DNA of 64,000 bases from Xanthostigma xanthostigma. Its lineage: Eukaryota > Arthropoda > Insecta > Raphidioptera > Raphidiidae. The stretch's first letter is position 1; each line of letters opens with the position of its first letter. The position numbers and the translations under genes were made by a program. Shown here in pieces: positions 1 to 64,000 of the stretch. Location of the stretch: positions 32,160,501 to 32,224,500 of the forward strand of contig OY754470.1 of assembly GCA_963575645.1 (NCBI GenBank), in the 5' to 3' direction. The notes under the pieces were generated by a model. That model saw only the letters and a list, made by a program, of their open reading frames with translations, made no database searches and was not told the origin of the DNA.

Positions 1-165
1 TACACTATAACATTCAGGTTTGGATCATTCTCTCATAAGAAAATGCAAACTGCATATTAACCATTATTTTAACGCACACAAGCAGTTTTTACATGCTTTA
101 TGACAATTAGGGGCAAATGAGTCCTTTTAGGCAAAATTGCTTTATTTTACAAAGGTAAGTCTATT
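1..165 (+). repeat. representative satellite monomer
   Basis: This is the first complete monomer; the next starts at 166 and the following at 330, giving lengths of 165 and 164. It carries the acgcacacaag variant and gagtccttttagg. The pairing of these two marks recurs near 15063, 19345, 28240, 33018, 40763 and 45541, so it serves as a landmark for the 13-kb super-repeats. It contains the dyad ATGCA-AAC-TGCAT at about 43-55. Its length is close to one nucleosome core plus a short linker, which is common among centromeric satellites; any phasing is inference. Confidence 0.9.
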
Positions 166-824
166 TACACTATAACATTCAGGTTTGGATCATTCTCTCA
201 TAAAAAATGCAAACTGCATATTAACCATTATTTTAACGCTGACAAGCAGTTTTTACATGCTTTACGACAATTAGGTGCAAATGAGTCCTTATAGGCAAAA
301 GTGCTTTATTTCATGAAGGTTAGTCTATTTACACTATAACATTCAGGTTTGGATCATTCTCTCATAAGAAAATGCAAACTGCATATTAACCATTATTTTA
401 ACGCTGACAAGCAGTTTTTACATGCTTTACGACAATTAGGTGCAAATGAGTCCTTATAGGCAAAATAGCTCTATTTTACAAAGGTTAGTATACTTAAACT
501 ATAACATTCAGGTTTGGATCATTCTCTCATAAGAAAATGCAAACTGCATATTAACGATTATTTTAACGCATACAAGCAGTTTTTACAAACTTTATGACAA
601 TTAGGTGCAAATGAGTCCTTATACGCAAAATTGCTGTATTTCATGAGGGTTAGTCTATTTACACTATAACATTTAGGTTTGGATCATTCTCTCATAAGAA
701 AATGCAAACTGCATATTTACTATCATTTTAACGCATACAAACAGTTTTTACATGCTTTATGACAATTAGGTGCAAATGAGTCCTTATAGGCAAAATTGCT
801 TTATTTCATGAGGGTAATGCTATT

Positions 825-988
825 TTCACTATAACATTTAGGTTTGGATCATTTTCTCATAAGAAAATGCAAGTTCATATTAACCATTATTTTAATGCAG
901 ACAAGCAGTTTTTACATGCTTTATGACAATTAGGGGCAAATGAGTCCTTATAGGCAAAATAGCTTTATTTCATTAAGGTTAAACTATT
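825..988 (+). repeat. A-variant monomer (1 of 9), 164 bp
   Basis: It reads ggtaatgctattttcac at its left edge, then ttttctcataag and atgcaagttcatatt with aatgcagac, so the dyad arm TGCAT is lost. It is followed by the gaatctctctcac monomer, a pairing kept at every A site. Confidence 0.88.
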
Positions 989-1395
989 TACACTATAACA
1001 TTCAGGTTTGAATCTCTCTCACTTAAGAAAATGCAAACTGCATATTAACCATTATTTTAACGCTGACAAGCAGTTTTTACATGCTTCACGACAATTGCGT
1101 GCAAATGAGTACTTAAGACCAAAATTGCGATATTTTACAAAGGTAAGTCTATTTTCACTATAACATTCAGATTTGGATCATTCTCTCATAAGAAAATGCA
1201 AACTGCATATTAACCATTATTTTAACGCATACAGGCAGTTTTTACATGCTTTATGACAATTTGGGGCAAATGAGTCCTTATAGGCAAAACTGCTTTATTT
1301 CATTAAGGTAAGTCTATTTACACTATAACATTCAGGTTTGGATCATTCTCTCATAAGAAAACGCAAACTGCATATTAACCATTATTTTAACGCTG

Positions 1396-3044
1396 ACAAG
1401 CAGTTTTTACATGCTTTACGACAATTAGGTGCAAATGAGTCCTTATAGGCAAAAGTGCTTTATTTCATGAGGGTAAGTCTATTTACACTATAACATTCAG
1501 GTTTGGATCATTCTCTCATAAGAAAATGCAAACTGCATATTTACTATCATTTTCACGCAGACAAGCAGTTTTTACATGCTTCACGACAATTGCGTGCAAA
1601 TGAGTCCTTATAGGCAAAATTGCTTTATTTTACAAAGGTAAGTCTATTTATATTATAACATTCAGGTTTAGATCATTTTCTCAAAAGATAATGCAAACTG
1701 ATCATTTCCTATTATTTTCACGCAGTCAAGCAGTTTTTACATGCTTCACGACAATTGCGTGCAAATGAGTCCTTATAAGCAAAATTGCTTTATTTAATGA
1801 GGGTAAGTCTATTTACACTATAACATTCAGGTTTAGATCATTCTCTCATAAGAAAATGCTAACTGCATATTAACCATTATTTTAACGCATACAAGCAGTT
1901 TTTACATGCTTTATGACAATTAGAGGCAAATGGGTCCTTATAGGCAAAATTGCTTTATTTCATGAAGGTTAGTCTATTTACACTATAACATTCAGGTTTG
2001 GATCATTCTCTCATAAGAAAATGCAAACTGCATATTAACCATTATTTTAACGCAACAAGCAGTTTTTACATGCTTCACGACAATTAGGTGCAAATGAGTC
2101 CTTATAGGCAAAATTGCTTTATTTCATGAGGGTAAGTCTATTTACACTATAACGTTCAGGTTTGGATCATTCTCTCATAAGAAAATGCAAACTGCATATT
2201 TACTATCATTTTCACGCAGACAAGCAGTTTTTACATGCTTCACGACAATTGCGTGCAAATGAGTCCTTATAGGCAAAATTGCTTTATTTTACAAAGGTAA
2301 GTCTATTTACACTATAACATTCAGGTTTGGATCATTCTCTCATAAGAAAATGCAAACTGCATATTAACCATTATTTTAACGCATACAAGCAGTTTTTACA
2401 TGCTTTATGACAATTAGGGGCAAATGAGTCCTTATAGGCAAAATTGCTTTATTTTACAAAGGTAAGTTTACTTAAACTATAACATTCAGGTTTGGATCAT
2501 TCTCTCATAGGAAAATGCAAACTGCATATTAACCATTATTTAAACGCAGACAAGCAGTTTTCACATGCTTTACGACAATTAGGTGCAAATGAATCTTTAT
2601 AAGCAAAATTGCTTTATTTCATGAGGGTAAGTCTATTTACACTATAACGTTCAGGTTTGGATCATTCTCTCATAAGAAAATGCAAACTGCATATTTACTA
2701 TCATTTTCACGCAGACAAGCAGTTTTTACATGCTTCACGACAATTGCGTGCAAATGAGTCCTTATAGGCAAAATTGCTTTATTTTACAAAATCAAGTCTA
2801 TTTACACTATAACATTCAGGTTTGGATCATTCTCTCATAAGAAAATGCAAACTGCATATTAACTATTATTTTAACGCATACACGCAGTTTTTACAAGCTT
2901 TATGACAATTAGGTGCAAATGAGTCCTTATAGGCAAAATTGCTTTATTTCATGAGGGTAAGTCTATTTACACTATAACATTCAGGTTTGGATCATTCTCT
3001 CATAAGAAAATGCAAACTGCATATTTACTATCATTTTAACGCAT
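1396..3044 (+). repeat. 1649-bp (10-monomer) tandem duplication, first copy
   Basis: Comparing each base with the base 1649 downstream, sequences agree from about 1396, just after the last mismatch (gctgac here, gcatac downstream), to about 3067. Rare marks shared by both copies include the divergent X monomer (1649 and 3298), gtttagatcattctctc with atgctaactgc, ctcataggaaaatgc, and tacaaaatcaagtc. One clear substitution is t at 1826 against a at 3475. The near identity indicates a recent tandem duplication, or recent homogenisation, of ten monomers. Confidence 0.88.
1649..1813 (+). repeat. divergent X monomer, subtype a (1 of 17)
   Basis: The X form is the most divergent monomer in the window. 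It reads tatattataac, ctcaaaagataatgc, actgatcatttcctat and acgcagtcaag. The TGCAT half of the usual dyad is replaced by tgatcattt. Subtype a has ggtttagatc, ctattatttt and atttaatgag. The next monomer has atgctaactgc and agaggcaaatgggtcc. Confidence 0.9.
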
Positions 3045-4693
3045 ACAAGCAGTTTTTACATGCTTTACGACAATTAGGTGCAAATGAGTCCTTATAGGCA
3101 AAAGTGCTTTATTTCATGAGGGTAAGTCTATTTACACTATAACATTCAGGTTTGGATCATTCTCTCATAAGAAAATGCAAACTGCATATTTACTATCATT
3201 TTCACGCAGACAAGCAGTTTTTACATGCTTCACGACAATTGCGTGCAAATGAGTCCTTATAGGCAAAATTGCTTTATTTTACAAAGGTAAGTCTATTTAT
3301 ATTATAACATTCAGGTTTAGATCATTTTCTCAAAAGATAATGCAAACTGATCATTTCCTATTATTTTCACGCAGTCAAGCAGTTTTTACATGCTTCACGA
3401 CAATTGCGTGCAAATGAGTCCTTATAAGCAAAATTGCTTTATTTAATGAGGGTAAGTCTATTTACACTATAACAATCAGGTTTAGATCATTCTCTCATAA
3501 GAAAATGCTAACTGCATATTAACCATTATTTTAACGCATACAAGCAGTTTTTACATGCTTTATGACAATTAGAGGCAAATGGGTCCTTATAGGCAAAATT
3601 GCTTTATTTCATGAAGGTTAGTCTATTTACACTATAACATTCAGGTTTGGATCATTCTCTCATAAGAAAATGCAAACTGCATATTAACCATTATTTTAAC
3701 GCAACAAGCAGTTTTTACATGCTTCACGACAATTAGGTGCAAATGAGTCCTTATAGGCAAAATTGCTTTATTTCATGAGGGTAAGTCTATTTACACTATA
3801 ACGTTCAGGTTTGGATCATTCTCTCATAAGAAAATGCAAACTGCATATTTACTATCATTTTCACGCAGACAAGCAGTTTTTACATGCTTCACGACAATTG
3901 CGTGCAAATGAGTCCTTATAGGCAAAATTGCTTTATTTTACAAAGGTAAGTCTATTTACACTATAACATTCAGGTTTGGATCATTCTCTCATAAGAAAAT
4001 GCAAACTGCATATTAACCATTATTTTAACGCATACAAGCAGTTTTTACATGCTTTATGACAATTAGGGGCAAATGAGTCCTTATAGGCAAAATTGCTTTA
4101 TTTTACAAAGGTAAGTTTACTTAAACTATAACATTCAGGTTTGGATCATTCTCTCATAGGAAAATGCAAACTGCATATTAACCATTATTTAAACGCAGAC
4201 AAGCAGTTTTCACATGCTTTACGACAATTAGGTGCAAATGAATCTTTATAAGCAAAATTGCTTTATTTCATGAGGGTAAGTCTATTTACACTATAACGTT
4301 CAGGTTTGGATCATTCTCTCATAAGAAAATGCAAACTGCATATTTACTATCATTTTCACGCAGACAAGCAGTTTTTACATGCTTCACGACAATTGCGTGC
4401 AAATGAGTCCTTATAGGCAAAATTGCTTTATTTTACAAAATCAAGTCTATTTACACTATAACATTCAGGTTTGGATCATTCTCTCATAAGAAAATGCAAA
4501 CTGCATATTAACTATTATTTTAACGCATACACGCAGTTTTTACAAGCTTTATGACAATTAGGTGCAAATGAGTCCTTATAGGCAAAATTGCTTTATTTCA
4601 TGAGGGTAAGTCTATTTACACTATAACATTCAGGTTTGGATCATTCTCTCATAAGAAAATGCAAACTGCATATTTACTATCATTTTAACGCAT
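3045..4693 (+). repeat. 1649-bp (10-monomer) tandem duplication, second copy
   Basis: This is the downstream copy of the 10-monomer unit. Identity continues to 4716, and the first mismatch is at 4717 (t here, c at 3068). The monomer at the join, about 2969-3133, is a hybrid: its left half (tttactatcattttaacgcatac) is like the monomer that ends this copy, and its right half (ttacgac with gcaaaagtgc) is like the monomer at 1320-1484 that begins the first copy. That is the expected product of unequal exchange inside a monomer. Confidence 0.88.
3298..3462 (+). repeat. X monomer, subtype a (2)
   Basis: Tandem-duplicate of the copy at 1649, exactly 1649 bp downstream. It is followed by the same atgctaactgc monomer, which here carries acaatcagg. 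Confidence 0.9.
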
Positions 4694-6921
4694 ACAAGCA
4701 GTTTTTACATGCTTTATGACAATTAGGTGCAAATGAGTCTTTATAGGCAAAATTGCTTTATTTCATGAGGGTAAGTCTATTTACACTAAAACATTCAGGT
4801 TTGGATCATTCTCTCATAAGAAAATGCAAACTGCATATTTACTATCATTTTCACGCAGACAAGCAGTTTTCACATGTTTTACGCAATTAGGTGGAAATAA
4901 GTTCTTAAAGACAAAATTGTTTTATTCCACAAAGGTATGTCTACTTTCACTATAACATTCAGGTTTGGATCATTCTCTCATAAGAAAATGCAAACTGCAT
5001 ATTAACCATTATTTTAACGCAGACAAGCAGTTTTTACATGCTTCACGACAATTGCGTGCAAATGAGTCCTTAAGGGCAAAATTGCGTTATTTTACAAAGG
5101 TAAGTCTATTTTCACTATAACATTCAGGTTTGGATCATTCTCTCATAAGAAAATGCAAACTGCATATTAACCATTATTTTAACGCAACAAGCAGTTTTTA
5201 CATGCTTTACGACAATTAGGTGCAAATGAGTCCTTATAGGCAAAATTGTTTTATTTCACAAAGGTTAGTCTACTTTCACTATAATATTCAGGGTTGGATC
5301 ATTCTCTCATAAAAAATGCAAATTGCATATTAACCATTATTTTAACGCAGACAAGCAGTTTTTACATGCTTCACGACAATTGCGTGCAAATGAGTCCTTA
5401 TAAGCAAAATTGCTTTATTTCATGAGAGTAAGTCTATTTACACTATAACATTCAGGTTTGGATCATTCTCTCATAAGAAAATGCAAACTGCATATTAACC
5501 ATTTTTTTAACGCAACAAGCAGTTTTTACATGCTTTACGATTATTAGGTGCAAATGAGTCCTTATAGGCAAAATTGTTTTATTTCACAAAGGTAAGTCTA
5601 CTTTCACTATAATATTCAGGGTTGGATCATTCTCTCATAACAAAATGCAAACTGCATATTAACCATTATTTCAACGCAGACAAGCAGTTTTTAAATGCTT
5701 TACGACAATTAGGTGCAAATGAGTCCTTATAGGCAAAATTGTTTTATTTCACAAAGGTAAGTCTACTTTCACTATAATATTCAGGGTTGGATCATTCTCT
5801 CATAACAAAATGCAAACTGCATATTAACCATTATTTTAACGCAGACAAGCAGTTTTTACATGCTTCACGACAATTGTATGCAAATGAGTCCTTATAGGCA
5901 AAATTGCTTTATTTTACAAAGGTAAGTCTATTTACACTATAACATTCAGGTTTGGATCATTCTCTCATAAGGAAATGCAAACAGCATATTAACCATTATT
6001 TTAACGCATACAAGCAGTTTTTACATGCTTTATGACAATTAGGGGCAAATGAGTCTTTATAGGCAAAATTGCTTTATTTCATGAAGGTAAGTCTATTTAC
6101 ACTATAACATTCAGGTTTGGATCATTCTCTCATAAGAAAATGTAAACTGCATATTAACCCTTATTTTAACGCAGACAAGCAGTTTTTACATGCTTCACGA
6201 CAATTGCGTGCAAATGAGTCCTTATAGGCAAAATTGCGTTATTTTACAAAGGTAAGTCTATTTTCACTATAACATTCAGGTTTGGATCATTCTCTCATAA
6301 GAAAATGCAAACTGCATATTAACCATTATTTTAACGCTGACAAGCAGTTTTTACATGCTTTACGACAATTAGGTGCAAATGAGTCCTTATAGGCAAAAGT
6401 GCTTTATTTCATGAACGTTAGTCAATTTACACTATAACATTCAGGTTTGGATCATTCTCTCATAAAAAAATGCAAACTGCATATTAACCATTATTTTAAC
6501 GCAACAAGCAGTTTTTACATGCTTTACGACAATTAGGTGCAAATGAGTCCTTATAGGCAAAATAGCTTTATTTTACAAAGGTAAGTATACTTAAACTATA
6601 ACATTCAGGTTTGGATCATTCACTCATAAGAAAATGCAAACTGCATATTAACGATTATTTTAACGCATACAAGCAGTTTTTACAAGCTTTATGACAATTA
6701 GGTGCAAATTAGTCCTTATAGGCAAAATTGCTTTATTTCATGAGGGTTAGTCTATTTACACTATAACATTTAGGTTTGGATCATTCTCTCATAAGAAAAT
6801 GCAAACTGCATATTTACTATCATTTTAACGCATACAAACAGTTTTTACATGCTTTATGACAATTAGGTGCAAATGAGTCCTTATAGGCAAAATTGCTTTA
6901 TTTCATGAGGGTAATGCTATT

Positions 6922-7745: not shown

Positions 7746-9063
7746 TACACTATAACATTCAGGTTTGGATCATTCTCTCATAAGAAAATGCAAACTGCAT
7801 ATTAACCATTATTTTAACGCAACAAGCAGTTTTTACATGCTTTACGACAATTAGGTGCAAATGAGTCCTTATAGGCAAAATTGCTTTATTTCATGAGGGT
7901 AAGTCTATTTACACTATAACGTTCAGGTTTGGATTATTCTCTCATAAGAAAATGCAAACTGCATATTAACTATTATTTTAACGCATACAAGCAGTTTTTA
8001 CATGCTTTATGACAATTAGGGGCAAATGAGTCCTTATAGGCAAAATTGCTTTATTTTACAAAGGTAAGTTTACTTAAACTATAACATTCAGGTTTGGATC
8101 ATTCTCTCATAAGAAAATGCAAACTGCATATTAACCATTATTTAAACGCAGACAAGCAGTTTTCACATGCTTTACGACAATTAGGTGCAAATGAATCTTT
8201 ATAGGCAAAATTGCTTTATTTCATGAGGGTAAGTCTATTTACACTATAACGTTCAGGTTTGGATCATTCTCTCATAAGAAAATGCAAACTGCATATTTAC
8301 TATCATTTTCACGCAGACAAGCAGTTTTTACATGCTTCACGACAATTGCGTGCAAATGAGTCCTTATAGGCAAAATTGCTTTATTTTACAAAGGTAAGTC
8401 TATTTACACTATAACATTCAGGTTTGGATCATTCTCCCATAAGAAAATGCAAACTGCATATTAACTATTATTTTAACGCATACACGCAGATTTTACAAGC
8501 TTTATGACAATTAGGTGCAAATGAGTCCTTATAGGCAAAATTGCATTATTTCATGAGGGTAAGTCTATTTACACTATAACATTCAGGTTTGGATCATTCT
8601 CTCATAAGAAAATGCAAACTGCATATTTACTATCATTTTAACGCATACAAGCAGTTTTTACATGCTTTATGACAATTAGGTGCAAATGAGTCTTTATAGG
8701 CAAAATTGCTTTATTTCATGAGGGTAAGTCTATTTACGCTAAAACATTCAGGTTTGGATCATTCTCTCATAAGAAAATGCAAACTGCATATTTACTATCA
8801 TTTTCACGCAGACAAGCAGTTTTCACATGTTTTACGCAATTAGGTGGAAATAAGTTCTTAAAGACAAAATTGTTTTATTCCACAAAGGTATGTCTACTTT
8901 CACTATAACATTCAGGTTTGGATCATTCTCTCATAAGAAAATGCAAACTGCATATTAACCATTATTTTAACGCAGACAAGCAGTTTTTACATGCTTCACG
9001 ACAATTGCGTGCAAATGAGTCCTTAAGGGCAAAATTGCGTTATTTTACAAAGGTAAGTCTATT

Positions 9064-9227
9064 TTCACTATAACATTCAGGTTTGGATCATTCTCTCATT
9101 AGAAAATGCAAGTTCATATTAACCATTATTTTAATGCAGACAAGCAGTTTTTACATGCTTTATGACAATTAGGGGCAAATGAGTCCTTATAGGCAAAATA
9201 GCTTTATTTCATTAAGGTTATACTATT
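9064..9227 (+). repeat. A-variant monomer with different left half (3)
   Basis: The left edge is the standard ggtaagtctattttcac with ctctcattag, not ggtaatgc with ttttctcataag. The A monomer is therefore joined here to the ccttaagggc monomer by an exchange inside its first third. 22240 has the same join. Confidence 0.88.
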
Positions 9228-10052
9228 TACACTATAACATTCAGGTTTGAATCTCTCTCACATAAGAAAATGCAAACTGCATATTAACCATTATTTTAAC
9301 GCTGACAAGCAGTTTTTACATGCTTCACGACAATTGCGTGCAAATGAGTACTTAAGACCAAAATTGCGATATTTTACAAAGGTAAGTCTATTTTCACTAT
9401 AACATTCAGGTTTGGATCATTCTCTCATAAGAAAATGCAAACTGCATATTAACCATTATTTTAACGCATACAGGCAGTTTTTACATGCTTTATGACAATT
9501 TGGGGCAAATGAGTCCTTATAGGCAAAATTGCTTTATTTCATTAAGGTAAGTCTATTTACACTATAACATTCAGGTTTGGATCATTCTCTCATAAGAAAA
9601 CGCAAACTGCATATTAACCATTATTTTAACGCTGACAAGCAGTTTTTACATGCTTTACGACAATTAGGTGCAAATGAGTCCTTATAGGCAAAAGTGCTTT
9701 ATTTCATGAGGGTAAGTCTATTTACACTATAACATTCAGTTTTGGATCATTCTCTCATAAGAAAATGCAAACTGCATATTAACTATCATTTTCACGCAGA
9801 CAAGCAGTTTTCACATGTTTTACGACAATAAGGTGGAAATAGGTCCTTAAAGGCAAAATTGTTTAATTTCACAAAGGTAAGTCTACTTTCACTATAATAT
9901 TCAGGGTTGGATCATTCTCTCATAAGAAAATGCAAACTGCATATTAACCATTATTTTAACGCAGACAAGCAGTTTTTAAATGCTTCACGACAATTGCGTG
10001 CAAATGAGTCCTTATAGGCAAAATTGCTTTATTTTACAAAGGTAAGTCTATT

Positions 10053-10217
10053 TATATTATAACATTCAGGTTTAGATCATTTTCTCAAAAGATAATGCAA
10101 ACTGATCATTTCCTATTATTTTCACGCAGTCAAGCAGTTTTTACATGCTTCACGACAATTGCGTGCAAATGAGTCCTTATTAGCAAAATTGCTTTATTTA
10201 ATGAGGGTAAGTCTATT
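10053..10217 (+). repeat. X monomer, subtype a (4)
   Basis: It has a private change, ccttattagc. Its right neighbour is not the usual agaggcaaatggg monomer but a acgttcagg monomer, apparently through conversion. Confidence 0.9.
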
Positions 10218-11359
10218 TACACTATAACGTTCAGGTTTGGATCATTCTCTCATAAGAAAATGCAAACTGCATATTTACTATCATTTTCACGCAGACAAGC
10301 AGTTTTTACATGCTTCACGACAATTGCGTGCAAATGAGTCCTTATAGGCAAAATTGCTTTATTTTACAAAAGTAAGTCTATTTACACTATAACATTCAGG
10401 TTTGGATCATTCTCTCATAAGAAAATGCAAACTGCATATTAACCATTATTTTAACGCAACAAGCAGTTTTTACATGCTTCACGACAATTAGGTGCAAATG
10501 AGTCCTTATAGGCAAAATTGCTTTATTTCATGAGGGTAAGTCTATTTACACTATAACGTTCAGGTTTGGATCATTCTCTCATAAGAAAATGCAAACTGCA
10601 TATTTACTATCATTTTCACGCAGACAAGCAGTTTTTACATGCTTCACGACAATTGCGTGCAAATGAGTCCTTATAGGCAAAATTGCTTTATTTTACAAAA
10701 GTAAGTCTATTTACACTATAACATTCAGGTTTGGATCATTCTCTCATAAGAAAATGCAAACTGCATATTAACCATTATTTTAACGCATACAAGCAGTTTT
10801 TACATGCTTTATGACAATTAGGGGCAAATGAGTCCTTATAGGCAAAATTGCTTTATTTTACAAAGGTAAGTTTACTTAAACTATAACATTCAGGTTTGGA
10901 TCATTCTCTCATAAGAAAATGCAAACTGCATATTAACCATTATTTAAACGCAGACAAGCAGTTTTCACATGCTTTACGACAATTAGGTGCAAATGAATAT
11001 TTATAAGCAAAATTGCTTTATTTCATGAGGGTAAGTCTATTTACACTATAACGTTCAGGTTTGGATCATTCTCTCATAAGAAAATGCAAACTGCATATTT
11101 ACTATCATTTTCACGCAGACAAGCAGTTTTTACATGCTTCACGACAATTGCGTGCAAATGAGTCCTTATAGGCAAAATTGCTTTATTTTACAAAATCAAG
11201 TCTATTTACACTATAACATTCAGGTTTGGATCATTCTCTCATAAAAAAATGCAAACTGCATATTAACTATTATTTTAACGCATACACGCAGTTTTTACAA
11301 GCTTTATGACAATTAGGTGCAAATGAGTCCTTATAGGCAAAATTGCTTTATTTCATGAG

Positions 11360-12840
11360 GGTAAGTCTATTTACACTATAACATTCAGGTTTGGATCATT
11401 CTCTCATAAGAAAATGCAAACTGCATATTTACTATCATTTTAACGCATACAAGCAGTTTTTACATGCTTTATGACAATTAGGTGCAAATGAGTCTTTATA
11501 GGCAAAATTGCTTTATTTCATGAGGGTAAGTCTATTTACACTAAAACATTCAGGTTTGGATCATTCTCTCATAAGAAAATGCAAACTGCATATTTACTAT
11601 CATTTTCACGCAGACAAGCAGTTTTCACATGTTTTACGCAATTAGGTGGAAATAAGTTCTTAAAGACAAAATTGTTTTATTCCACAAAGGTATGTCTACT
11701 TTCACTATAACATTCAGGTTTGGATCATTCTCTCATAAGAAAATGCAAACTGCATATTAACCATTATTTTAACGCAGACAAGCAGTTTTTACATGCTTCA
11801 CGACAATTGCGTGCAAATGAGTCCTTAAGGGCAAAATTGCGTTATTTTACAAAGGTAAGTCTATTTTCACTATAACATTCAGGTTTGGATCATTCTCTCA
11901 TAAGAAAATGCAAACTGCATATTAACCATTATTTTAACGCAACAAGCAGTTTTTACATGCTTTACGACAATTAGGTGCAAATGAGTCCTTATAGGCAAAA
12001 TTGTTTTATTTCACAAAGGTAAGTCTACTTTCACTATAATATTCAGGGTTGGATCATTCTCTCATAAAAAATGCAAATTGCCTATTAACCATTATTTTAA
12101 CGCAGACAAGCAGTTTTTACATGCTTCACGACAATTGCGTGCAAATGAGTCCTTATAAGCAAAATTGCTTTATTTCATGAGAGTAAGTCTATTTACACTA
12201 TAACATTCAGGTTTGGATCATTCTCTCATAAGAAAATGCAAACTGCATATTAACCATTATTTTAACGCAACAAGCAGTTTTTACATGCTTTACGATTATT
12301 AGGTGCAAATGAGTCCTTATAGGCAAAATTGTTTTATTTCACAAAGGTAAGTCTACTTTCACTATAATATTCAGGGTTGGATCATTCTCTCATAACAAAA
12401 TGCAAACTGCATATTAACCATTATTTTAACGCAGACAAGCAGTTTTTAAATGCTTTACGACAATTAGGTGCAAATGAGTCCTTATAGGCAAAATTGTTTT
12501 ATTTCACAAAGGTAAGTCTACTTTCACTATAATATTCAGGGTTGGATCATTCTCTCATAACAAAATGCAAACTGCATATTAACCATTATTTTAACGCAGA
12601 CAAGCAGTTTTTACATGCTTCACGACAATTGTATGCAAATGAGTCCTTATAGGCAAAATTGCTTTATTTTACAAAGGTAAGTCTATTTACACTATAACAT
12701 TCAGGTTTGGATCATTCTCTCATAAGGAAATGCAAACAGCATATTAACCATTATTTTAACGCATACAAGCAGTTTTTACATGCTTTATGACAATTAGGGG
12801 CAAATGAGTCTTTATAGGCAAAATTGCTTTATTTCATGAA
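11360..12840 (+). repeat. M9 unit (9 monomers, 1481 bp), first tandem copy
   Basis: Nine distinguishable monomers in order carry: acgcatacaag with gagtcttta; actaaaac with ttttacgcaattagg; ccttaagggc; acgcaacaag; ataaaaaatgcaaattgc; catgagagtaag with tacgattatt; ataacaaaatgc with ttttaaatgc; ataacaaaatgc with attgtatgc; and ataaggaaatgcaaacagc. Identity with the next copy starts at 11360, with the mismatch g11359 against a12840. This first copy has cctattaacc where the second has catattaacc, near 12080. The same unit recurs near 24536 and 38540. Confidence 0.88.
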
Positions 12841-14320: not shown

Positions 14321-14586
14321 GGTAAGTCTATTTACACTATAACATTCAGGTTTGGATCATTCTCTCATAAGAAAATGCAAACTGCATATTTACTATCATT
14401 TTAACGCATACAAGCAGTTTTTACATGCTTTATGACAATTAGGTGCAAATGAGTCTTTATAGGCAAAATTGCTTTATTTCATGAGGGTAAGTCTATTTAC
14501 ACTAAAACATTCAGGTTTGGATCATTCTCTCATAAGAAAATGCAAACTGCATATTTACTATCATTTTCACGCAGACAAGCAGTTTT
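14321..14586 (+). repeat. truncated third M9 copy with deletion junction
   Basis: M9 monomer 1 and half of monomer 2 are present. At 14587 the sequence switches from the expected ttttcacatgttttacg to tttttacatgcttcacg with attgtatgc, which is M9 monomer 8. About six monomers are therefore missing, the join lying in the shared gcagacaagcag segment. Monomer 9 then follows with aaacagcatttt, leading into the acacaag monomer near 15063. The same junction occurs near 27763 and 40286, so it predates spread of the super-repeat. Confidence 0.82.
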
Positions 14587-48275: not shown

Positions 48276-48440
48276 TATATTATAACATTCAGGTTTAGAT
48301 CATTTTCTCAAAAGATAATGCAAACTGATCATTTCCTATAATTTTCACGCAGTCAAGCAGTTTTTACATGCTTCACGACAATTGCGTGCAAATGAGTCCT
48401 TATAAGCAAAATTGCTTTATTTAATGAGGGTAAGTCTATT
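48276..48440 (+). repeat. X monomer, subtype b (11), super-repeat copy 3
   Basis: Counterpart of 34762 at offset 13514, beyond the 991-bp expansion. Confidence 0.9.
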
Positions 48441-49319: not shown

Positions 49320-52290
49320 ATTAACCATTATTTTAACGCATACAGGCAGTTTTTACATGCTTTATGACAATTAGGGGCAAATGAGTCCTTATAGGCAACA
49401 TTGCTTTATTTCATTAAGGTAAGTCTATTTACACTATAACATTCAGGTTTGGATCATTCTCTCATAAGAAAACGCAAACTGCATAATAACCATTATTTTA
49501 ACGCTGACAAGCAGTTTTTACATGCTTTACGACAATTAGGTGCAAATGAGTCCTTATAGGCAAGAGTGCTTTATTTCATGAGGGTTAGTCTATTTACACT
49601 ATAACATTCAGGTTTGGATCATTCGCTCATAAGAAAATGCAAACTGCATATTTACTATCATTTTCACGCAGACAAGCAGTTTTCACATGTTTTACGACAA
49701 TAAGGTGAAATTAAGTCCTTAAAGGCAAAATTGTTATATTTCACAAAGGTAAGTCTACTTTCACTATAATATTCAGGGTTGGATCATTCTCTCATAATAA
49801 AATGCAAACTGCATATTAACCATTATTTTAACGCAGACAAGCAGTTTTTAAATGCTTCACGACAATTGCGTGCAAATAAGTCCTTATAGGCAAAATTGCT
49901 TTATTTTACAAAGGTAAGTCTATTTATATTATAACATTCAGGTTTGGATCATTTTCTCAAAAGATAATGCAAACTGATCATTTCCTATTATTTTCACGCA
50001 GTCAAGCAGTTTTTACATGCTTCACGACAATTGCGTGCAAATGAGTCCTTATAAGCAAAATTGCTTTATTTCATGAGGGTAAGTCTATTTACACTATAAC
50101 ATTCAGGTTTGGATCATTCTCTCATAAGAAAATGCAAACTGCATATTAACCATTATTTTAACGCATACAAGCAGTTTTTACATGCTTTATGACAATTAGA
50201 GGCAAATGGGTCCTTATAGGCAAAATTGCTTTATTTCATGAAGGTTAGTCTATTTACACTATAACATTCAGGTTTGGATCATTCTCTCATAAGAAAATGC
50301 AAACTGCATATTAACCATTATTTTAACGCAACAAGCAGTTTTTACATGCTTTACGACAATTAGGTGCAAATGAGTCCTTAAAGGAAAAATTGTTTTATTT
50401 CACAATGGTAAGTCTACTTTCACTATAACATTCAGGTTTGGATCATTCTCTCATAAGAAAATGCAAACTGCATATTAACCATTATTTTAACGCAGACAAG
50501 CAGTTTTTAAATGCTTCACGACAATTGCGTGCAAATGAGTCCTTATAAGCAAAATTGCTTTATTTCATGAGGGTAAGTCTATTTACACTATAACATTCAG
50601 GTTTGGATCATTCTCTCATAAGAAAATGCAAACTGCATATTATCTATTATTTTAACGCATACAAGCAGTGTTTACATGCTTTATGACAATTAGGGGCAAA
50701 TGAGTCCTTATAGGCAAAATTGCTTTATTTCATAAGGGTAAGTCTATTTACACTATAACATTCAGGTTTGGATCATTCTCTCATAAGAAAATGCAAACTG
50801 AATATTGACTATCATTTTCACGCAGACAAGCAGTTTTTACATGGTTTACGACAATTAGGTGCAAATAAGTCCTTAAAGAAAAAATTGTTTTATTTCACAA
50901 TGGTAAGTCTACTTTCACTATAACATTCAGGTTTGGATCATTCTCTCATAAGAAAACGCAAATTGCATAATAACCATTATTTTAACACAGACAAGCAGTT
51001 TTTACATGCTTCACGACAATTGCGTGCAAATGAGTCCTTATAGGCAAAATTGCTTTATTTTACAAAGGTAAGTCTATTTGCACTATAACATTCAGGTTTG
51101 GATAATTCTCTCATAAGAAAATGCAAACTGCATATTAACCATTATTTTAACGCATACAAGCAGTTTTTACAAGCTTTATGACAATTAGGTGCAAATGAGT
51201 CCTTATAGGCAAAATTGCTTTATTTCATGAGGGTAAGTCTATTTACACTATAACATTCAGGTTTGGATCATTCTCTCATAAGAAAATGCAAACTGCATAT
51301 TTTCTATCATTTTAACGCATACAAGCAGTTTTTACATGCTTTATGACAATTAGGTGCAAATGAGTCTTTATAGGCAAAATTGCTTTATTTCATGTGGGTT
51401 AGTCTATTTACACTATAACATTCAGGTTTGGATCATTCTCTCATAAGAAAATGCAAACTGCATATTAACCATTATTTTAACGCATACAAGCAGTTTTTAC
51501 ATGCTTTATGACAATTAGATGCAAATGAGTCCTTATAGGCAAAATTGCTTTATTTCATTAAGGTAAGTCTATTTACACTATAACATTCAGGTTTGGATCA
51601 TTCTCTCATAAGAAAACGCAAACTGCATATTAACCATTATTTTAACGCTGACAAGCAGTTTTTACATGCTTTACGACAATTAGGTGCAAATGAGTCCTTA
51701 TAGGCAAAATTGCTTTATTTTACAAAGGTAAGTCTATTTACACTATAACATTCAGGTTTGGATCATTCTCTCATAAGAAAATGCGAACTGCATATTAACC
51801 ATTATTTAAACGCAGACAAGCAGTTTTCACATGCTTTACGACAATTAGGTGCAAATGAATCTTTATAGGCAAAATTGCTTTATTTCATGAGGGTAAGTCT
51901 ATTTACACTATAACGTTCAGGTTTGGATCATTCTCTCATAAGAAAATGCAAACTGCATATTTACTATCATTTTCACGCAGACAAGCAGTTTTTACATGCT
52001 TCACGACAATATCGTGCAAATGAGTCCTTATAGGCAAAATTGCTTTATTTTACAAAGGTAAGTCTATTTACACTATAACATTCAGGTTTGGATCATTCTC
52101 TCATAAGAAAATGCAAACTGCATATTAACTATTATTTTAACGCATACACGCAGTTTTTACAAGCTTTATGACAATTAGGTGCAAATGAGTCCTTATAGGC
52201 AAAATTGCTTTATTTCATGAGGGTAAGTCTATTTACACTATAACATTCAGGTTTGGATCATTCTCTCATAAGAAAATGCAAACTGCATAT
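49320..52290 (+). repeat. 2.97-kb (18-monomer) segment, first copy
   Basis: This matches 58882-61852 at a constant offset of 9562. Shared rare marks are aaaacgcaaattgc (50953 and 60515), cagtctatttgcactataac-type monomers with gataattctctc, atgtgggtt, and atgcgaactgc (51783 and 61345). Small differences include cataagggt against catgagggt and gcataataacc against gcatattaacc. Confidence 0.8.
49925..50089 (+). repeat. X monomer, subtype c (12), super-repeat copy 3
   Basis: Counterpart of 36411. It also aligns with 59487 at offset 9562, making it a likely relative of the H10 copies. Confidence 0.9.
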
Positions 52291-55201: not shown

Positions 55202-56849
55202 TACACTAAAACATTCAGGTTTAGATCATTCTCTCATAAGAAAATGCAAACTGCATATTTACAATCATTTTCACGCAGACAAGCAGTTTTCACATGTTTT
55301 ACGCAATTAGGTGGAAATAAGTTCTTAAAGACAAAATTGTTTTATTCCACAAAGGTATGTCTACTTTCACTATAACATTCAGGTTTGGATCATTCTCTCA
55401 TAAGAAAATGCAAACTGCATATTAACCATTATTTTAACGCAGACAAGCAGTTTTTACATGCTTCACGACAATTGCGTGCAAATGAGTCCTTAAGGGCAAA
55501 ATTGCGTTATTTTACAAAGGTAAGTCTATTTTCACTATAACATTCAGGTTTGGATCATTCTCTCATAAGAAAATGCAAACTGCATATTAACCATTATTTT
55601 AACGCATACAGGCAGTTTTTACATGCTTTATGACAATTAGGGGCAAATGAGTCCTTATAGGCAAAATTGCTTTATTTCATTAAGGTAAGTCTATTTACAC
55701 TATAACATTCAGGTTTGGATCATTCTCTCATAAGAAAACGCAAACTGCATATTAACCATTATTTTAACGCTGACAAGCAGTTTTTACATGCTTTACGACA
55801 ATTAGGTGCAAATGAGTCCTTATAGGCAAGAGTGCTTTATTTCATGAGGGTTAGTCAATTTACACTATAACATTCAGGTTTGGATCATTCGCTCATAAGA
55901 AAATGCAAACTGCATATTTACTATCATTTTCACGCAGACAAGCAGTTTTCACATGTTTTACGACAATAAGGTGAAATTAAGTCCTTAAAGGCAAAATTGT
56001 TATATTTCACAAAGGTAAGTCTACTTTCACTATAATATTCAGGGTTGGATCATTCTCTCATAAGAAAATGCAAACTGCATATTAACCATTATTTTAACGC
56101 AGACAAGCAGTTTTTAAATGCTTCACGACAATTGCGTGCAAATAAGTCCTTATAGGCAAAATTGCTTTATTTTACAAAGGTAAGTCTATTTATATTATAA
56201 CATTCAGGTTTGGATCATTTTCTCAAAAGATAATGCAAACTGATCATTTCCTATTATTTTCACGCAGTCAAGCAGTTTTTACATGCTTCACGACAATTGC
56301 GTGCAAATGAGTCCTTATAAGCAAAATTGCTTTATTTCATGAGGGTAAGTCTATTTACACTATAACATTCAGGTTTGGATCATTCTCTCATAAGAAAATG
56401 CAAACTGCATATTAACCATTATTTTAACGCATACAAGCAGTTTTTACATGCTTTATGACAATTAGAGGCAAATGGGTCCTTATAGGCAAAATTGCTTTAT
56501 TTCATGAAGGTTAGTCTATTTACACTATAACATTCAGGTTTGGATCATTCTCTCATAAGAAAATGCAAACTGCATATTAACCAATATTTTAACGCAACAA
56601 GCAGTTTTTACATGCTTTACGACAATTAGGTGCAAATGAGTCCTTAAAGGAAAAATTGTTTTATTTCACAATGGTAAGTCTACTTTCACTATAACATTCA
56701 GGTTTGGATCATTCTCTCATAAGAAAATGCAAACTGCATATTAACCATTATTTTAACGCAGACAAGCAGTTTTTAAATGCTTCACGACAATTGCGTGCAA
56801 ATGAGTCCTTATAAGCAAAATTGCTTTATTTCATGAGGGTAAGTCTATT
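55202..56849 (+). repeat. H10 unit (10 monomers, 1648 bp), copy 1
   Basis: The ten monomers in order carry: ttttacgcaattagg; ccttaagggc; catacaggcag; aaaacgcaaac with gctgac; attcgctcataag with gtgaaattaag; atattcagg with ttttaaatgc; the X monomer (type c); agaggcaaatgggtcc; acgcaacaag with aaaggaaaaattg and cacaatgg; and ttttaaatgc with ccttataagc. This copy differs from the next in ggtttagatc with tacaatcatt, gtcaatttac near 55853, and acaataagg where later copies have acagtaagg. It looks like the oldest or least homogenised member. Confidence 0.85.
56191..56355 (+). repeat. X monomer, subtype c (14), H10 copy 1
   Basis: Seventh monomer of H10 copy 1. Confidence 0.9.
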
Positions 56850-58497
56850 TACACTATAACATTCAGGTTTGGATCATTCTCTCATAAGAAAATGCAAACT
56901 GCATATTTACTATCATTTTCACGCAGACAAGCAGTTTTCACATGTTTTACGCAATTAGGTGGAAATAAATTCTTAAAGACAAAATTGTTTTATTCCACAA
57001 AGGTAAGTCTACTTTCACTATAACATTCAGGTTTGGATCATTCTCTCATAAGAAAATGCAAACTGCATATTAACCATTATTTTAACGCAGACAAGCAGTT
57101 TTTACATGCTTCACGACAATTGCGTGTAAATGAGTCCTTAAGGGCAAAATTGCGTTATTTTACAAAGGTAAGTCTATTTTCACTATAACATTCAGGTTTG
57201 GATCATTCTCTCATAAGAAAATGCAAACTGCATATTAACCATTATTTTAACGCATACAGGCAGTTTTTACATGCTTTATGACAATTAGGGGCAAATGAGT
57301 CCTTATAGGCAAAATTGCTTTATTTCATTAAGGTAAGTCTATTTACACTATAACATTCAGGTTTGGATCATTCTCTCATAAGAAAACGCAAACTGCATAT
57401 TAACCATTATTTTAAAGCTGACAAGCAGTTTTTACATGCTTTACGACAATTGCGTGCAAATGAGTCCTTATAGGCAAAAGTGCTTTATTTCATGAGGGTT
57501 AGTCTATTTACACTATAACATTCAGGTTTGGATCATTCGCTCATAAGAAAATGCAAACTGCATATTTACTATCATTTTCACGCAGACAAGCAGTTTTCAC
57601 ATGTATTACGACAGTAAGGTGAAATTAAGTCCTTAAAGGCAAAATTGTTATATTTCACTAAGGTAAGTCTACTTTCACTATAATATTCAGGATTGGATCA
57701 TTCTCTCATAAGAAAATGCAAAATGCATATTAACCATTATTTTAACGCAGACAAGCAGTTTTTAAATGCTTCACGACAATTGCGTGCAAATAAGTCCTTA
57801 TAGGCAAAATTGCTTTATTTTACAAAGGTAAGTCTATTTATATTATAACATTCAGGTTTGGATAATTTTCTCAAAAGATAATGCAAACTGATCATTTCCT
57901 ATTATTTTCACGCAGTCAAGCAGTTTTTACATGCTTCACGACAATTGCGTGCAAATGAGTCCTTATAAGCAAAATTGCTTTATTTCATGAGGGTAAGTCT
58001 ATTTACACTATAACATTCAGGTTTGGATCATTCTCTCATAAGAAAATGCAAACTGCATATTAACCATTATTTTAACGCATACACGCAGTTTTTACATGCT
58101 TTATGACAATTAGAGGCAAATGGGTCCTTATAGGCAAAATTGCTTTATTTCATGAAGGTAAGTCTATTTACACTATAACATTCAGGTTTGGATCATTCTC
58201 TCATAAGAAAATGCAAACTGCATATTAACCATTATTTTAACGCAACAAGCAGTTTTTACATGCTTTACGACAATTAGGTGCAAATGAGTCCTTAAAGGAA
58301 AAATTGTTTTATTTCACAATGGTAAGTCTACTTTCACTATAACATTAAGGTTTGGATCATTCTCTCATAAGAAAATGCAAACTGCATATTAACCATTATT
58401 TTAACGCAGACAAGCAGTTTTTAAATGCTTCACGACAATTGCGTGCAAATGAGTCCTTATAAGCAAAATTGCTTTATTTCATGAGGGTAAGTCTATT
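56850..58497 (+). repeat. H10 unit, copy 2
   Basis: This has the same ten-monomer order at +1648. It reads actataac at its start where the other H10 copies read actaaaac. Private changes include acgacagtaagg with gtattacg, atgcaaaatgcatatt shared with copies 3 and 4, and gataattttctc in its X monomer. Confidence 0.86.
57839..58003 (+). repeat. X monomer, subtype c (15), H10 copy 2
   Basis: Seventh monomer of H10 copy 2, with private gataattttctc. Confidence 0.9.
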
Positions 58498-60145
58498 TAC
58501 ACTAAAACATTCAGGTTTGGATCATTCTCTCATAAGAAAATGCAAACTGCATATTTACTATCATTTTCACGCAGACAAGCAGTTTTCACATGTTTTACGC
58601 AATTAGGTGGAAATAAATTCTTAAAGACAAAATTGTTTTATTCCACAAAGGTAAGTCTACTTTCACTATAACATTCAGGTTTGGATCATTCTCTCATAAG
58701 AAAATGCAAACTGCATATTAACCATTATTTTAACGCAGACAAGCAGTTTTTACATGCTTCACGACAATTGCGTGTAAATGAGTCCTTAAGGGCCAAATTG
58801 CGTTATTTTACAAAGGTAAGTCTATTTTCACTATAACATTCAGGTTTGGATCATTCTCTCATAAGAAAATGCAAACTGCATATTCACCATTATTTTAACG
58901 CATACAGGCAGTTTTTACATGCTTTATGACAATTAGGGGCAAATGAGTCCTTATAGGCAAAATTGCTTTATTTCATTAAGGTAAGTCTATTTACACTATA
59001 ACATTCAGGTTTGGATCATTCTCTCATAAGAAAACGCAAACTGCATATTAACCATTATTTTAACGCTGACAAGCAGTTTTTACATGCTTTACGACAATTG
59101 CGTGCAAATGAGTCCTTATAGGCAAAAGTGCTTTATTTCATGAGGGTTAGTCTATTTACACTATAACATTCAGGTTTGGATCATTCGCTCATTAGAAAAT
59201 GCAAACTGCATATTTACTATCATTTTCACGCAGACAAGCAGTTTTCACATGTTTTACGACAGTAAGGTGAAATTAAGTCCTTAAAGGCAAAATTGTTATA
59301 TTTCACTAAGGTAAGTCTACTTTCACTATAATATTCAGGATTGGATCATTCTCTCATAAGAAAATGCAAAATGCATATTAACCATTATTTTAACGCAGAC
59401 AAGCAGTTTTTAAATGCTTCACGACAATTGCGTGCAAATAAGTCCTTATAGGCAAAATTGCTTTATTTTACAAAGGTAAGTCTATTTATATTATAACATT
59501 CAGGTTTGGATCATTTTCTCAAAAGATAATGCAAACTGATCATTTCCTATTATTTTCACGCAGTCAAGCAGTTTTTACATGCTTCACGACAATTGCGTGC
59601 AAATGAGTCCTTATAAGCAAAATTGCTTTATTTCATGAGGGTAAGTCTATTTACACTATAACATTCAGGTTTGGATCATTCTCTCATAAGAAAATGCAAA
59701 CTGCATATTAACCATTATTTTAACGCATACAAGCAGTTTTTACATGCTTTATGACAATTAGAGGCAAATGGGTCCTTATAGGCAAAATTGCTTTATTTCA
59801 TGAAGGTAAGTCTATTTACACTATAACATTCAGGTTTGGATCATTCTCTCATAAGAAAATGCAAACTGCATATTAACCATTATTTTAACGCAACAAGCAG
59901 TTTTTACATGCTTTACGACAATTAGGTGCAAATGAGTCCTTAAAGGAAAAATTGTTTTATTTCACAATGGTAAGTCTACTTTCACTATAACATTCAGGTT
60001 TGGATCATTCTCTCATAAGAAAATGCAAACTGCATATTAACCATTATTTTAACGCAGACAAGCAGTTTTTAAATGCTTCACGACAATTGCGTGCAAATGA
60101 GTCCTTATAAGCAAAATTGCTTTATTTCATGAGGGTAAGTCTATT
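58498..60145 (+). repeat. H10 unit, copy 3
   Basis: This has the same order at +1648 again. It differs from copy 2 by single bases such as ctcattagaaaatgc near 59190 and tattcaccatta near 58883. Its right part also aligns with about 49.3-50.6 kb of super-repeat copy 3 (offset 9562), showing that H10 grew from that end of the super-repeat. Confidence 0.86.
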
Positions 60146-61852
60146 TACACTATAACATTCAGGTTTGGATCATTCTCTCATAAGAAAATGCAAACTGCAT
60201 ATTATCTATTATTTTATCGCATACAAGCAGTTTTTACATGCTTTATGACAATTAGGGGCAAATGAGTCCTTATAGGCAAAATTGCTTTATTTCATGAGGG
60301 TAAGTCTATTTACACTATAACATTCAGGTTTGGATCATTCTCTCATAAGAAAATGCAAACTGAATATTGACTATCATTTTCACGCAGACAAGCAGTTTTT
60401 ACATGGTTTACGACAATTAGGTGCAAATAAGTCCTTAAAGAAAAAATTGTTTTATTTCACAATGGTAAGTCTACTTTCACTATAACATTCAGGTTTGGAT
60501 CATTCTCTCATAAGAAAACGCAAATTGCATATTAACCATTATTTTAACACAGACAAGCAGTTTTTACATGCTTCACGACAATTGCGTGCAAATGAGTCCT
60601 TATAGGCAAAATTGCTTTATTTTACAAAGGTAAGTCTATTTGCACTATAACATTCAGGTTTGGATAATTCTCTCATAAGAAAATGCAAACTGCATATTAA
60701 CCATTATTTTAACGCATACAAGCAGTTTTTACAAGCTTTATGACAATTAGGTGCAAATGAGTCCTTATAGGCAAAATTGCTTTATTTCATGAGGGTAAGT
60801 CTATTTACACTATAACATTCAGGTTTGGATCATTCTCTCATAAGAAAATGCAAACTGCATATTTTCTATCATTTTAACGCATACAAGCAGTTTTTACATG
60901 CTTTATGACAATTAGGTGCAAATGAGTCTTTATAGGCAAAATTGCTTTTTTTCATGTGGGTTAGTCTATTTACACTATAACATTCAGGTTTGGATCATTC
61001 TCTCATAAGAAAATGCAAACTGCATATTAACCATTATTTTAACGCATACAAGCAGTTTTTACATGCTTTATGACAATTAGATGCAAATGAGTCCTTATAG
61101 GCAAAATTGCTTTATTTCATTAAGGTAAGTCTATTTACACTATAACATTCAGGTTTGGATCATTCTCTCATAAGAAAACGCAAACTGCATATTAACCATT
61201 ATTTTAACGCTGACAAGCAGTTTTTACATGCTTTACGACAATTAGGTGCAAATGAGTCCTTATAGGCAAAATTGCTTTATTTTACAAAGGTAAGTCTATT
61301 TACACTATAACATTCAGGTTTGGATCATTCTCTCATAAGAAAATGCGAACTGCATATTAACCATTATTTAAACGCAGACAAGCAGTTTTCACATGCTTTA
61401 CGACAATTAGGTGCAAATGAATCTTTATAGGCAAAATTGCTTTATTTCATGAGGGTAAGTCTATTTACACTATAGCGTTCAGGTTTGGATCATTCTCTCA
61501 TAAGAAAATGCAAACTGCATATTTACTATCATTTTCACGCAGACAAGCAGTTTTTACATGCTTCACGACAATTGCGTGCAAATGAGTCCTTATAGGCAAA
61601 ATTGCTTTATTTTGCAAAGGTAAGTCTATTTACACTATAACATTCAGGTTTGGATCATTCTCTCATAAGAAAATGCAAACTGCATATTAACTATTATTTT
61701 AACGCATACACGCAGTTTTTACAAGCTTTATGACAATTAGGTGCAAATGAGTCCTTATAGGCAAAATTGCTTTATTTCATGAGGGTAAGTCTATTTACAC
61801 TATAACATTCAGGTTTGGATCATTCTCTCATAAGAAAATGCAAACTGCATAT
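58882..61852 (+). repeat. 2.97-kb (18-monomer) segment, second copy
   Basis: This is the second copy of 49320-52290. Just after it (about 61853-62182) two extra monomers, including a gtttacttaaac type, are inserted relative to the first copy, raising the offset from 9562 to 9892. A further substitution, ttgctttttttcatg near 60946, breaks the otherwise constant tttatttcatg. Confidence 0.8.
59487..59651 (+). repeat. X monomer, subtype c (16), H10 copy 3
   Basis: Seventh monomer of H10 copy 3, 1648 bp after the previous one. Confidence 0.9.
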
Positions 61853-62290
61853 TAACCATTATTTTAACGCATACAAGCAGTTTTTACATGCTTTATGACA
61901 ATTAGGGGCAAATGAGTCCTTATAGGCAAAATTGCTTTATTTTACAAAGGTAAGTTTACTTAAACTATAACATTCAGGTTTGGATCATTCTCTCATAAGA
62001 AAATGCAAACTGCATATTAACTATTATTTTAACGCATACACGCAGTTTTTACAAGCTTTATGACAATTAGGTGCAAATGAGTCCTTATAGCCAAAATTGC
62101 TTTATTTCATGAGGGTAAGTCTATTTACACTATAACATTCAGGTTTGGATCATTCTCTCATAAGAAAATGCAAACTGCATATTTACTATCATTTTAACGC
62201 ATACAAGCAGTTTTTACATGCTTTATGACAATTAGGTGCAAATGAGTCTTTATAGGCAAAATTGCTTTATTTCATGAGGGTAAGTCTATT

Positions 62291-63938
62291 TACACTAAAA
62301 CATTCAGGTTTGGATCATTCTCTCATAAGAAAATGCAAACTGCATATTTACTATCATTTTCACGCAGACAAGCAGTTTTCACATGTTTTACGCAATTAGG
62401 TGGAAATAAGTTCTTAAAGACAAAATTGTTTTATTCCACAAAGGTAAGTCTACTTTCACTATAACATTCAGGTTTGGATCATTCTCTCATAAGAAAATGC
62501 AAACTGCATATTAACCATTATTTTAACGCAGACAAGCAGTTTTTACATGCTTCACGACAATTGCGTGTAAATGAGTCCTTAAGGGCAAAATTGCGTTATT
62601 TTACAAAGGTAAGTCTATTTTCACTATAACATTCAGGTTTGGATCATTCTCTCATAAGAAAATGCAAACTGCATATTAACCATTATTTTAACGCATACAG
62701 GCAGTTTTTACATGCTTTATGACAATTAGGGGCAAATGAGTCCTTATAGGCAAAATTGCTTTATTTCATTAAGGTAAGTCTATTTACACTATAACATTCA
62801 GGTTTGGATCATTCTCTCATAAGAAAACGCAAACTGCATATTAACCATTATTTTAACGCTGACAAGCAGTTTTTACATGCTTTACGACAATTGCGTGCAA
62901 ATGAGTCCTTATAGGCAAAAGTGCTTTATTTCATGAGGGTTAGTCTATTTACACTATAACATTCAGGTTTGGATCATTCGCTCATAAGAAAATGCAAACT
63001 GCATATTTACTATCATTTTCACGCAGACAAGCAGTTTTCACATGTTTTACGACAGTAAGGTGAAATTAAGTCCTTAAAGGCAAAATTGTTATATTTCACT
63101 AAGGTAAGTCTACTTTCACTATAATATTCAGGGTTGGATCATTCTCTCATAAGAAAATGCAAAATGCATATTAACCATTATTTTAACGCAGACAAGCAGT
63201 TTTTAAATGCTTCACGACAATTGCGTGCAAATAAGTCCTTATAGGCAAAATTGCATTATTTTACAAAGGTAAGTCTATTTATATTATAACATTCAGGTTT
63301 GGATCATTTTCTCAAAAGATAATGCAAACTGATCATTTCCTATTATTTTCACGCAGTCAAGCAGTTTTTACATGCTTCACGACAATTGCGTGCAAATGAG
63401 TCCTTATAAGCAAAATTGCTTTATTTCATGAGGGTAAGTCTATTTACACTATAACATTCAGGTTTGGATCATTCTCTCATAAGAAAATGCAAACTGCATA
63501 TTAACCATTATTTTAACGCATACAAGCAGTTTTTACATGCTTTATGACAATTAGAGGCAAATGGGTCCTTATAGGCAAAATTGCTTTATTTCATGAAGGT
63601 AAGTCTATTTACACTATAACATTCAGGTTTGGATCATTCTCTCATAAGAAAATGCAAACTGCATATTAACCATTATTTTAACGCAACAAGCAGTTTATAC
63701 ATGCTTTACGACAATTAGGTGCAAATGAGTCCTTAAAGGAAAAATTGTTTTATTTCACAATGGTAAGTCTACTTTCACTATAACATTCAGGTTTGGATCA
63801 TTCTCTTATAAGAAAATGCAAACTGCATATTAACCATTATTTTAACGCAGACAAGCAGTTTTTAAATGCTTCACGACAATTGCGTGCAAATGAGTCCTTA
63901 TAAGCAAAATTGCTTTATTTCATGAGGGTAAGTCTATT
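62291..63938 (+). repeat. H10 unit, copy 4 (separated by an inserted segment)
   Basis: The order and markers match copies 2 and 3, including acagtaagg, atgcaaaatgcatatt and gcgtgtaaatgag. It is 3793 bp beyond copy 3 instead of 1648 because the 60.1-62.3 kb segment lies between. Downstream it passes directly to the gaatattgact monomer, whereas copy 3 first has an extra attatctatt monomer near 60146-60310. Confidence 0.84.
63280..63444 (+). repeat. X monomer, subtype c (17), H10 copy 4
   Basis: Seventh monomer of H10 copy 4. The preceding monomer ends ttgcattatttt, a change also seen before 36411 but not before the other H10 copies. Confidence 0.9.
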
Positions 63939-64000
63939 TACACTATAACATTCAGGTTTGGATCATTCTCTCATAAGAAAATGCAAACTGAATATTGACT

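Follow-up and report, generated by a model that had tools for sequence, protein, structure and literature searches.

Human alpha satellite consists of 171-bp monomers joined head to tail and organized in higher-order repeats (HORs) of diverged monomers; it has expanded recently, and a single HOR unit dominates. In Arabidopsis, HORs are irregular. Which of these architectures does an insect satellite follow? We analysed 64,000 nucleotides of Xanthostigma xanthostigma (Raphidioptera; GenBank assembly GCA_963575645.1, contig OY754470.1, positions 32,160,501 to 32,224,500 of the forward strand), here called the window, which is filled by a satellite array with a monomer of 165 bp. The array resembles alpha satellite in monomer length, head-to-tail orientation, HORs of diverged monomers and recent expansion, but no single unit dominates these 64 kb. 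Set against the human satellite, it is also without a CENP-B box, and its monomers are 90.7% alike on average, more than those within a human HOR.

Poplar Palv156, according to passages of PMC12046899, and likewise Arabidopsis CEN178 combine a nucleosome-scale monomer, an orientation mostly on one strand and HOR blocks that differ in monomer number and spacing. The array of X. xanthostigma shares these features; the likeness considered here is one of architecture. The 165-bp CentO of Oryza punctata has the same monomer length and is likewise named a satellite, a likeness taken from a title that implies no relationship. We find that duplicated blocks of many sizes make up the array as a mosaic, with no regular hierarchy. 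In architecture it is an irregular-HOR satellite, ordinary in kind.

Results

Block duplications of many sizes

All 64,000 bases belong to a single head-to-tail array with a 165-bp monomer and 32% GC.

1..64000, forward strand: unbroken 165-bp satellite array (TRF and wrap-around cutting, 389 pieces)

TRF, run with a longest period of 500, reported one array at 1-63996, with a period of 165, 388.4 copies and 90% matches. Wrap-around alignment to the consensus yielded 389 pieces, namely 307 of 165 bp, 80 of 164 bp, one of 163 bp and one of 62 bp at the window edge. Both results confirm the pure satellite described in the initial annotation of this DNA. As a long tandem array of one monomer family, with 388.4 copies and no inverted copies, it is satellite DNA.

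Does this array also contain three nested levels of repetition, as had been proposed, with units of 9 and 10 monomers (1481, 1648 and 1649 bp) inside super-repeats of 12.5-13.5 kb? Mean monomer identity by lag is almost flat across the window (about 0.90-0.92), because block indels mask the duplications; the comparison was therefore based on runs. Near-identical diagonal runs, for which five or more monomers with no more than three differences each were required, number 115, the longest comprising 50 monomers, and none appeared in 100 permutations of monomer order. Block duplications thus exceed chance, and the run statistics place the array with irregular, mosaic HOR satellites of the Arabidopsis type. 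Identical tracts reach 3293 bp.

The lags of 1481, 1648, 1649 and 12.5-13.5 kb do exist as near-identical DNA, but as local features, each confined to particular stretches. When runs of at least 4 monomers are counted, a lag of 9 monomers occurs in three places, 10 in two, 5 in one, 41 in three, 76 in one, 80 in two and 82 in one. Monomer pairs differing at no more than one position account for 27/380 at lag 9 and 23/379 at lag 10. Their highest fractions are found at lags 76 (51/313), 80 (44/309) and 41 (47/348), compared to 1.7% of all pairs. The three nested levels fail because the lags are local and because blocks of 5, 41, 76, 80 and 82 monomers coexist with them; what had been taken for superposed higher-order levels are block duplications differing in size and age. 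With block sizes of 5, 9, 10, 41, 76, 80 and 82 monomers, these 64 kb do not form a regular HOR array of the human alpha-satellite type.

Autocorrelation across the window, proposed as a check on the nested levels, gave a divided answer and does not, as a whole, amount to the proposed refutation. There is no peak at 1481 (0.379, rank 52 among lags 1-3000); the peak for nine monomers sits at 1484 (0.530). In contrast, 12523 is the maximum within 12-14 kb (0.406), and locally the lags 1481, 1648 and 1649 give exact matches. Values at 1648, 1649 and 13176 are 0.450, 0.505 and 0.363, respectively, and the strongest signal beyond 10 kb lies at lag 32453 (0.462, with 39,999 as the longest lag considered). 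Any multiple of the monomer produces a peak, which largely accounts for those at 1484 and 1649; alone they do not prove a 9- or 10-monomer unit.

The blocks are listed below, with A, B and C denoting copies of the largest, the super-repeat.

10383..16473, forward strand: best-kept part of older super-repeat copy A, similar to 23559-29652 at lag 13176 (80 monomers)
8405..10217, forward strand: 11 monomers at lag 13176, similar to 21581-23393, 5 mismatches in 1813
24877..37399, forward strand: copy B, 76 monomers (12,523 bp), tandem segmental duplication delimited by alignment to copy C
37400..50913, forward strand: copy C, 82 monomers, six of them extra at about 45.6-46.8 kb
37393..37442, forward strand: 50-bp tract bounded by mismatches, identical at 24870-24919, 37393-37442 and 50907-50956
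22404..32782, forward strand: 41-monomer (6754 bp) repeat, 22404-26028 similar to 29158-32782, 11 mismatches in 3625
24548..27674, forward strand: 9-monomer (1481 bp) tandem duplication, with equivalents at 11372-14497 (copy A) and 37400-40197 (copy C)
1484..4781, forward strand: tandem duplication of 10 monomers (1649 bp), its copies differing by 4 mismatches in 1649
55861..60145, forward strand: about 2.6 tandem units of 10 monomers (1648 bp), close to the end of the window
45834..47525, forward strand: 5-monomer (825 bp) tandem duplication within copy C, free of mismatches over 867 bp at lag 825

The best-kept part of copy A comprises 37 monomers, with 17 mismatches in 6091 bases. Its 9-monomer block follows a lag of 1480 rather than 1481, owing to a 1-bp indel, and the equivalent in copy C is without the first two monomers. 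The 41-monomer repeat, absent from the units listed in the initial annotation, also occurs within 3628-12852 and 37400-45305. At 55861-60145, units 1 and 2 differ by 14 mismatches in 1648 (0.85%), and the third unit matches in 6 monomers only. When the comparison at lag 825 is shifted 132 bp on, past the end of the match, 18 mismatches in 825 appear.

The B/C duplication and its probable crossover tract

Copies B and C align over 12,523 bases with 5 mismatches and 991 gap bases, the latter extra in C and distributed over 2 gap openings. On either side of the extra stretch, lag 12523 joins 24877-33112 to 37400-45635 (50 monomers) and lag 13514 joins 33277-37399 to 46791-50913 (25 monomers). Alignment by monomer counts 12 differences over the 76 pairs, and a single pair, next to the insertion, accounts for 7 of them. 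Together with the long identical tracts, the few mismatches between B and C support the suggestion that the array has recently expanded. The 5-monomer tandem duplication sits inside the extra stretch of copy C. Since other stretches show the monomer order without the insertion, the six extra monomers would represent a gain in C.

Where did the exchange that gave rise to B and C take place? The exact match at lag 12523 starts at 24870; at lag 13514, the exact match extends as far as 37442. If a single exchange was involved, the 50-bp tract at 37393-37442 would be its crossover site. The tract spans about the last 7 and the first 43 consensus positions, and the monomers at the ends of the B/C unit show 7 and 12 differences in 165 positions. 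Being long and identical, such a tract would anyway be expected to fall in the conserved monomer segment.

Part of the order of events can be read from the position of the blocks. The 9-monomer duplication is found in A, B and C, its instance in B beginning 329 bp ahead of the B unit, and is therefore older than the B/C duplication. The A/B match at lag 13176 also encloses this duplication, which therefore probably predates that match, too. Over their full length A and B align irregularly, and ages consequently rest on the best stretches. In these, mismatches amount to 0.14-0.30% for the 9-monomer pairs, 0.24% for the 10-monomer duplication at the window start, 0.30-0.32% for the 41-monomer repeat, 0.28-0.34% for the lag-13176 (80-monomer) block and 0.04% for B/C (76 monomers). 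At the window head, 50/71 monomers align to the neighbouring super-repeat, in pieces and with large gaps. The last 13 kb (50914-63938) aligns to copy C in 25/79 monomers, again in pieces, and carries several private rare monomers; it is a candidate for a separate sub-array history or a transition zone.

Preserved register and probable hybrid monomers

Monomer register is kept at the junctions: 387/389 pieces measure 164-165 bp, the other two being the 163-bp monomer and the 62-bp piece at the window edge. Distinct sequences number 155 among the 387 full monomers, and at a threshold of 2 differences the 389 pieces fall into 60 groups. The 31 monomers in groups of at most two were defined as rare and compared with their possible parents. 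A two-parent mosaic was better than the best single parent by at least 3 differences in 11/31 rare monomers versus 0/620 simulated ones, and by at least 2 differences in 20/31 versus 9/620; the simulated control consists of randomly mutated single-parent monomers, which do not reproduce the shared ancestry of the real ones. Seven of the 31 are perfect mosaics.

Preserved register and monomers that fit as hybrids together favour homologous exchange over end joining. The mechanism is likely to have been homologous unequal exchange or break-induced replication, judging from these traces in the DNA. Hybrids and a preserved register are predicted by unequal sister exchange and by break-induced replication alike. 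Passages of Talbert and Henikoff 2022 (PMC8997354) describe models of both kinds and state that complex HOR structures are harder to explain through unequal exchange or gene conversion.

Variation along the monomer

The 387 full monomers, with the first and last piece set aside, have a mean identity of 94.1% to the consensus and 90.7% to one another. G+C per 2-kb step remains within 31.3-32.4%. No inverted copies were found in the window, as not a single reverse-strand 13-mer occurs on the forward strand. This check and the wrap-around cutting led us to reject inverted copies and inserted elements, and the claim that no inversion or transposon interrupts the array holds. A tRNA search of the window found none, and an Rfam search returned zero matches at gathering scores. 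A structured RNA or DNA was likewise rejected, given the zero Rfam matches and an ordinary consensus fold (z -0.53). A coding repeat was considered, as 165 equals 3 x 55, yet the only closed stop-to-stop frame of at least 80 amino acids in the window has 81 amino acids, and this candidate was also dismissed.

Variation is unevenly distributed along the monomer. Measured in 20-bp windows across 49 representative monomers, diversity lies at 0.02-0.04 for starts 1-41 and at about 0.14 for starts 136-146, an unevenness reached by 3/1000 column permutations. Consensus positions 1-50, the first third, vary little, and the last 30 bp (136-165) vary most.

CpG is depleted, with 862 observed versus 1614 expected. 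At the CpG of consensus 101-102, 247 monomers carry CG and 134 carry TG. The commonest CpG, at consensus 73-74, is nearly invariant (CG in 375, TG in 9). Among minor alleles present in 3 or more copies, 51 are transitions and 70 transversions. Strong decay through methylation is not supported by these two results.

Relatives of the monomer

Patterns taken from the conserved monomer segment had 0 exact matches in collections of viral and genome contigs (prokaryotic or viral), and blastn of window positions 1-1000 gave zero matches in plasmids and phages. Searches of the running text of papers with words from the consensus recovered only single 13-base words, which we attribute to chance; they occurred in papers on an antiviral compound and on gene editing in salmon. 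The passages of PMC12046899, PMC2543021, PMC8997354 and PMC9673304 that were consulted contain no monomer sequence for comparison. The monomer family is thus absent from the prokaryotic and viral collections and the texts searched, which says little about whether it has already been described.

Discussion

Nucleosome length combined with an A/T rhythm, freedom from insertions and very recent homogenization are usual in centromere cores, none of them being decisive. Is the array of X. xanthostigma centromeric? Its A/T dinucleotides have their strongest harmonic at 9.7 bp, corresponding to 17 turns per 165 bp. The power near 10 bp was matched by 3/500 shuffles, in a test range picked after the 9.7-bp peak had been observed. 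The nucleosome-scale monomer and this rhythm form a trait that is usual for centromeric satellites without defining them; A/T periodicity of 10 bp is common to many satellites, according to a passage of PMC8997354. With a pure array and recent homogenization in addition, a centromeric role is plausible, and the DNA is compatible with an active centromere core. We consider it somewhat more likely than not that the window belongs to a centromeric core or directly flanks one; this judgement draws on general base rates.

The window is probably an interior section of a long satellite array with nucleosome-length monomers, its location most likely centromeric or pericentromeric, in which blocks of 5, 9, 10, 41 and about 76-82 monomers would have been duplicated at different times. 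Duplication would have proceeded by homologous, in-register exchange between non-allelic monomers, either through unequal sister-chromatid exchange or through break-induced replication that resumes out of register. Earlier blocks would have been copied along within later ones. The blocks, part of their order, the kept register, the monomers that fit hybrids and one bounded crossover tract were computed here; from them we infer the recombination pathway that may have acted. As we also infer, centromeric nucleosomes would occupy the array; a monomer of 165 bp with an A/T rhythm of 9.7 bp would then favour their regular wrapping. Taken as a whole, a mosaic of in-register block duplications within a probably centromeric or pericentromeric array of nucleosome-length monomers is the explanation we hold to be likely.

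Could the lags instead reflect a true multi-level HOR, a regular 9- or 10-monomer unit nested in a regular unit of 12.5-13.5 kb as in human alpha satellite? The lags exist exactly, and large blocks return at comparable distances (12523, 13176 and 13514). Against this stand the restriction of the 9- and 10-monomer lags to just three and two places, the small share of near-identical pairs at these lags, and the piecemeal alignment of head and tail to the neighbouring super-repeat. Such a hierarchy is disfavoured within these 64 kb, and we regard it as highly improbable. Somewhat less remote, though still very unlikely, is an assembly error that would account for all or part of the 12.5-kb B/C repeat by a read path walked twice. 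Five mismatches in 12,523 bases are near the resolving limit of long-read assembly, for which satellite arrays are the hardest case. A path repeated twice would usually be identical, though, and copy C carries 991 bp extra with rare monomers of its own; moreover, the older lag-13176 blocks have spacings of similar size. The most serious alternative, which is compatible with the mosaic itself, concerns location: a heterochromatic satellite that plays no part in the kinetochore, whether pericentromeric, subtelomeric or interstitial, could have had the same recombination history. The window holds nothing specific to kinetochores, and a CENP-B-box satellite was rejected, since neither the 17-bp box nor its core is matched. 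Nucleosome length with the 9.7-bp rhythm, 64 kb free of insertions and recent homogenization speak for a centromere instead, none decisively, and we give this alternative a substantial chance, though one short of even.

Several observations weigh against the mosaic in a centromeric array, or against parts of it. Exact matches to the CENP-B box number 0 on both strands, the closest core match having 2 mismatches and the closest full box 6, and the single-strand fold of the consensus is ordinary, 57/200 shuffles folding as well. In poplar and willow, arrays without CENH3 peaks form HORs homogenized like Arabidopsis centromeres, as stated in a passage of PMC12046899, which makes the step from higher-order repeats to a centromere a weak one. 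The 31 rare monomers are not independent: 309/367 and 313/371 share a duplicated block (lag 58), both pairs belonging to the 11 mosaic-favoured monomers, and the perfect mosaics 278 and 283 each use the other as parent. A divergence of 0.04% between B and C would also fit an assembly error. As for the ages, the full-length comparison of A and B aligns 63 monomers with 0.83% difference and monomer gaps of up to 15, the stretches behind the ages of 0.3% overlap one another, and later gene conversion could make divergences poor clocks.

A more ambitious version of the mosaic would read the amplification bursts in order, with blocks of 9, 41 and 80 monomers dating from about the same time (about 0.3% in the best stretches of each) followed by the 76-monomer duplication (0.04%), whose crossover would lie in the 50-bp tract, mostly within the conserved first third of the monomer. 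We consider this version unlikely as it stands. The idea of a preferred exchange site comes from one tract.

What does this array tell us about satellite growth? It offers a worked example of how a centromere-like array may grow, with layered block duplications, probable in-register hybrids and one bounded crossover in 64 kb. It also cautions that lags picked by eye should not be taken for a hierarchy of HOR levels. If the ordered version is true and crossovers cluster in the conserved part of the monomer throughout the array, this segment would be a preferred site of recombination or fork restart, beyond a role as a binding or wrapping element. Such clustering would provide a sequence-based test of where satellite recombination starts.

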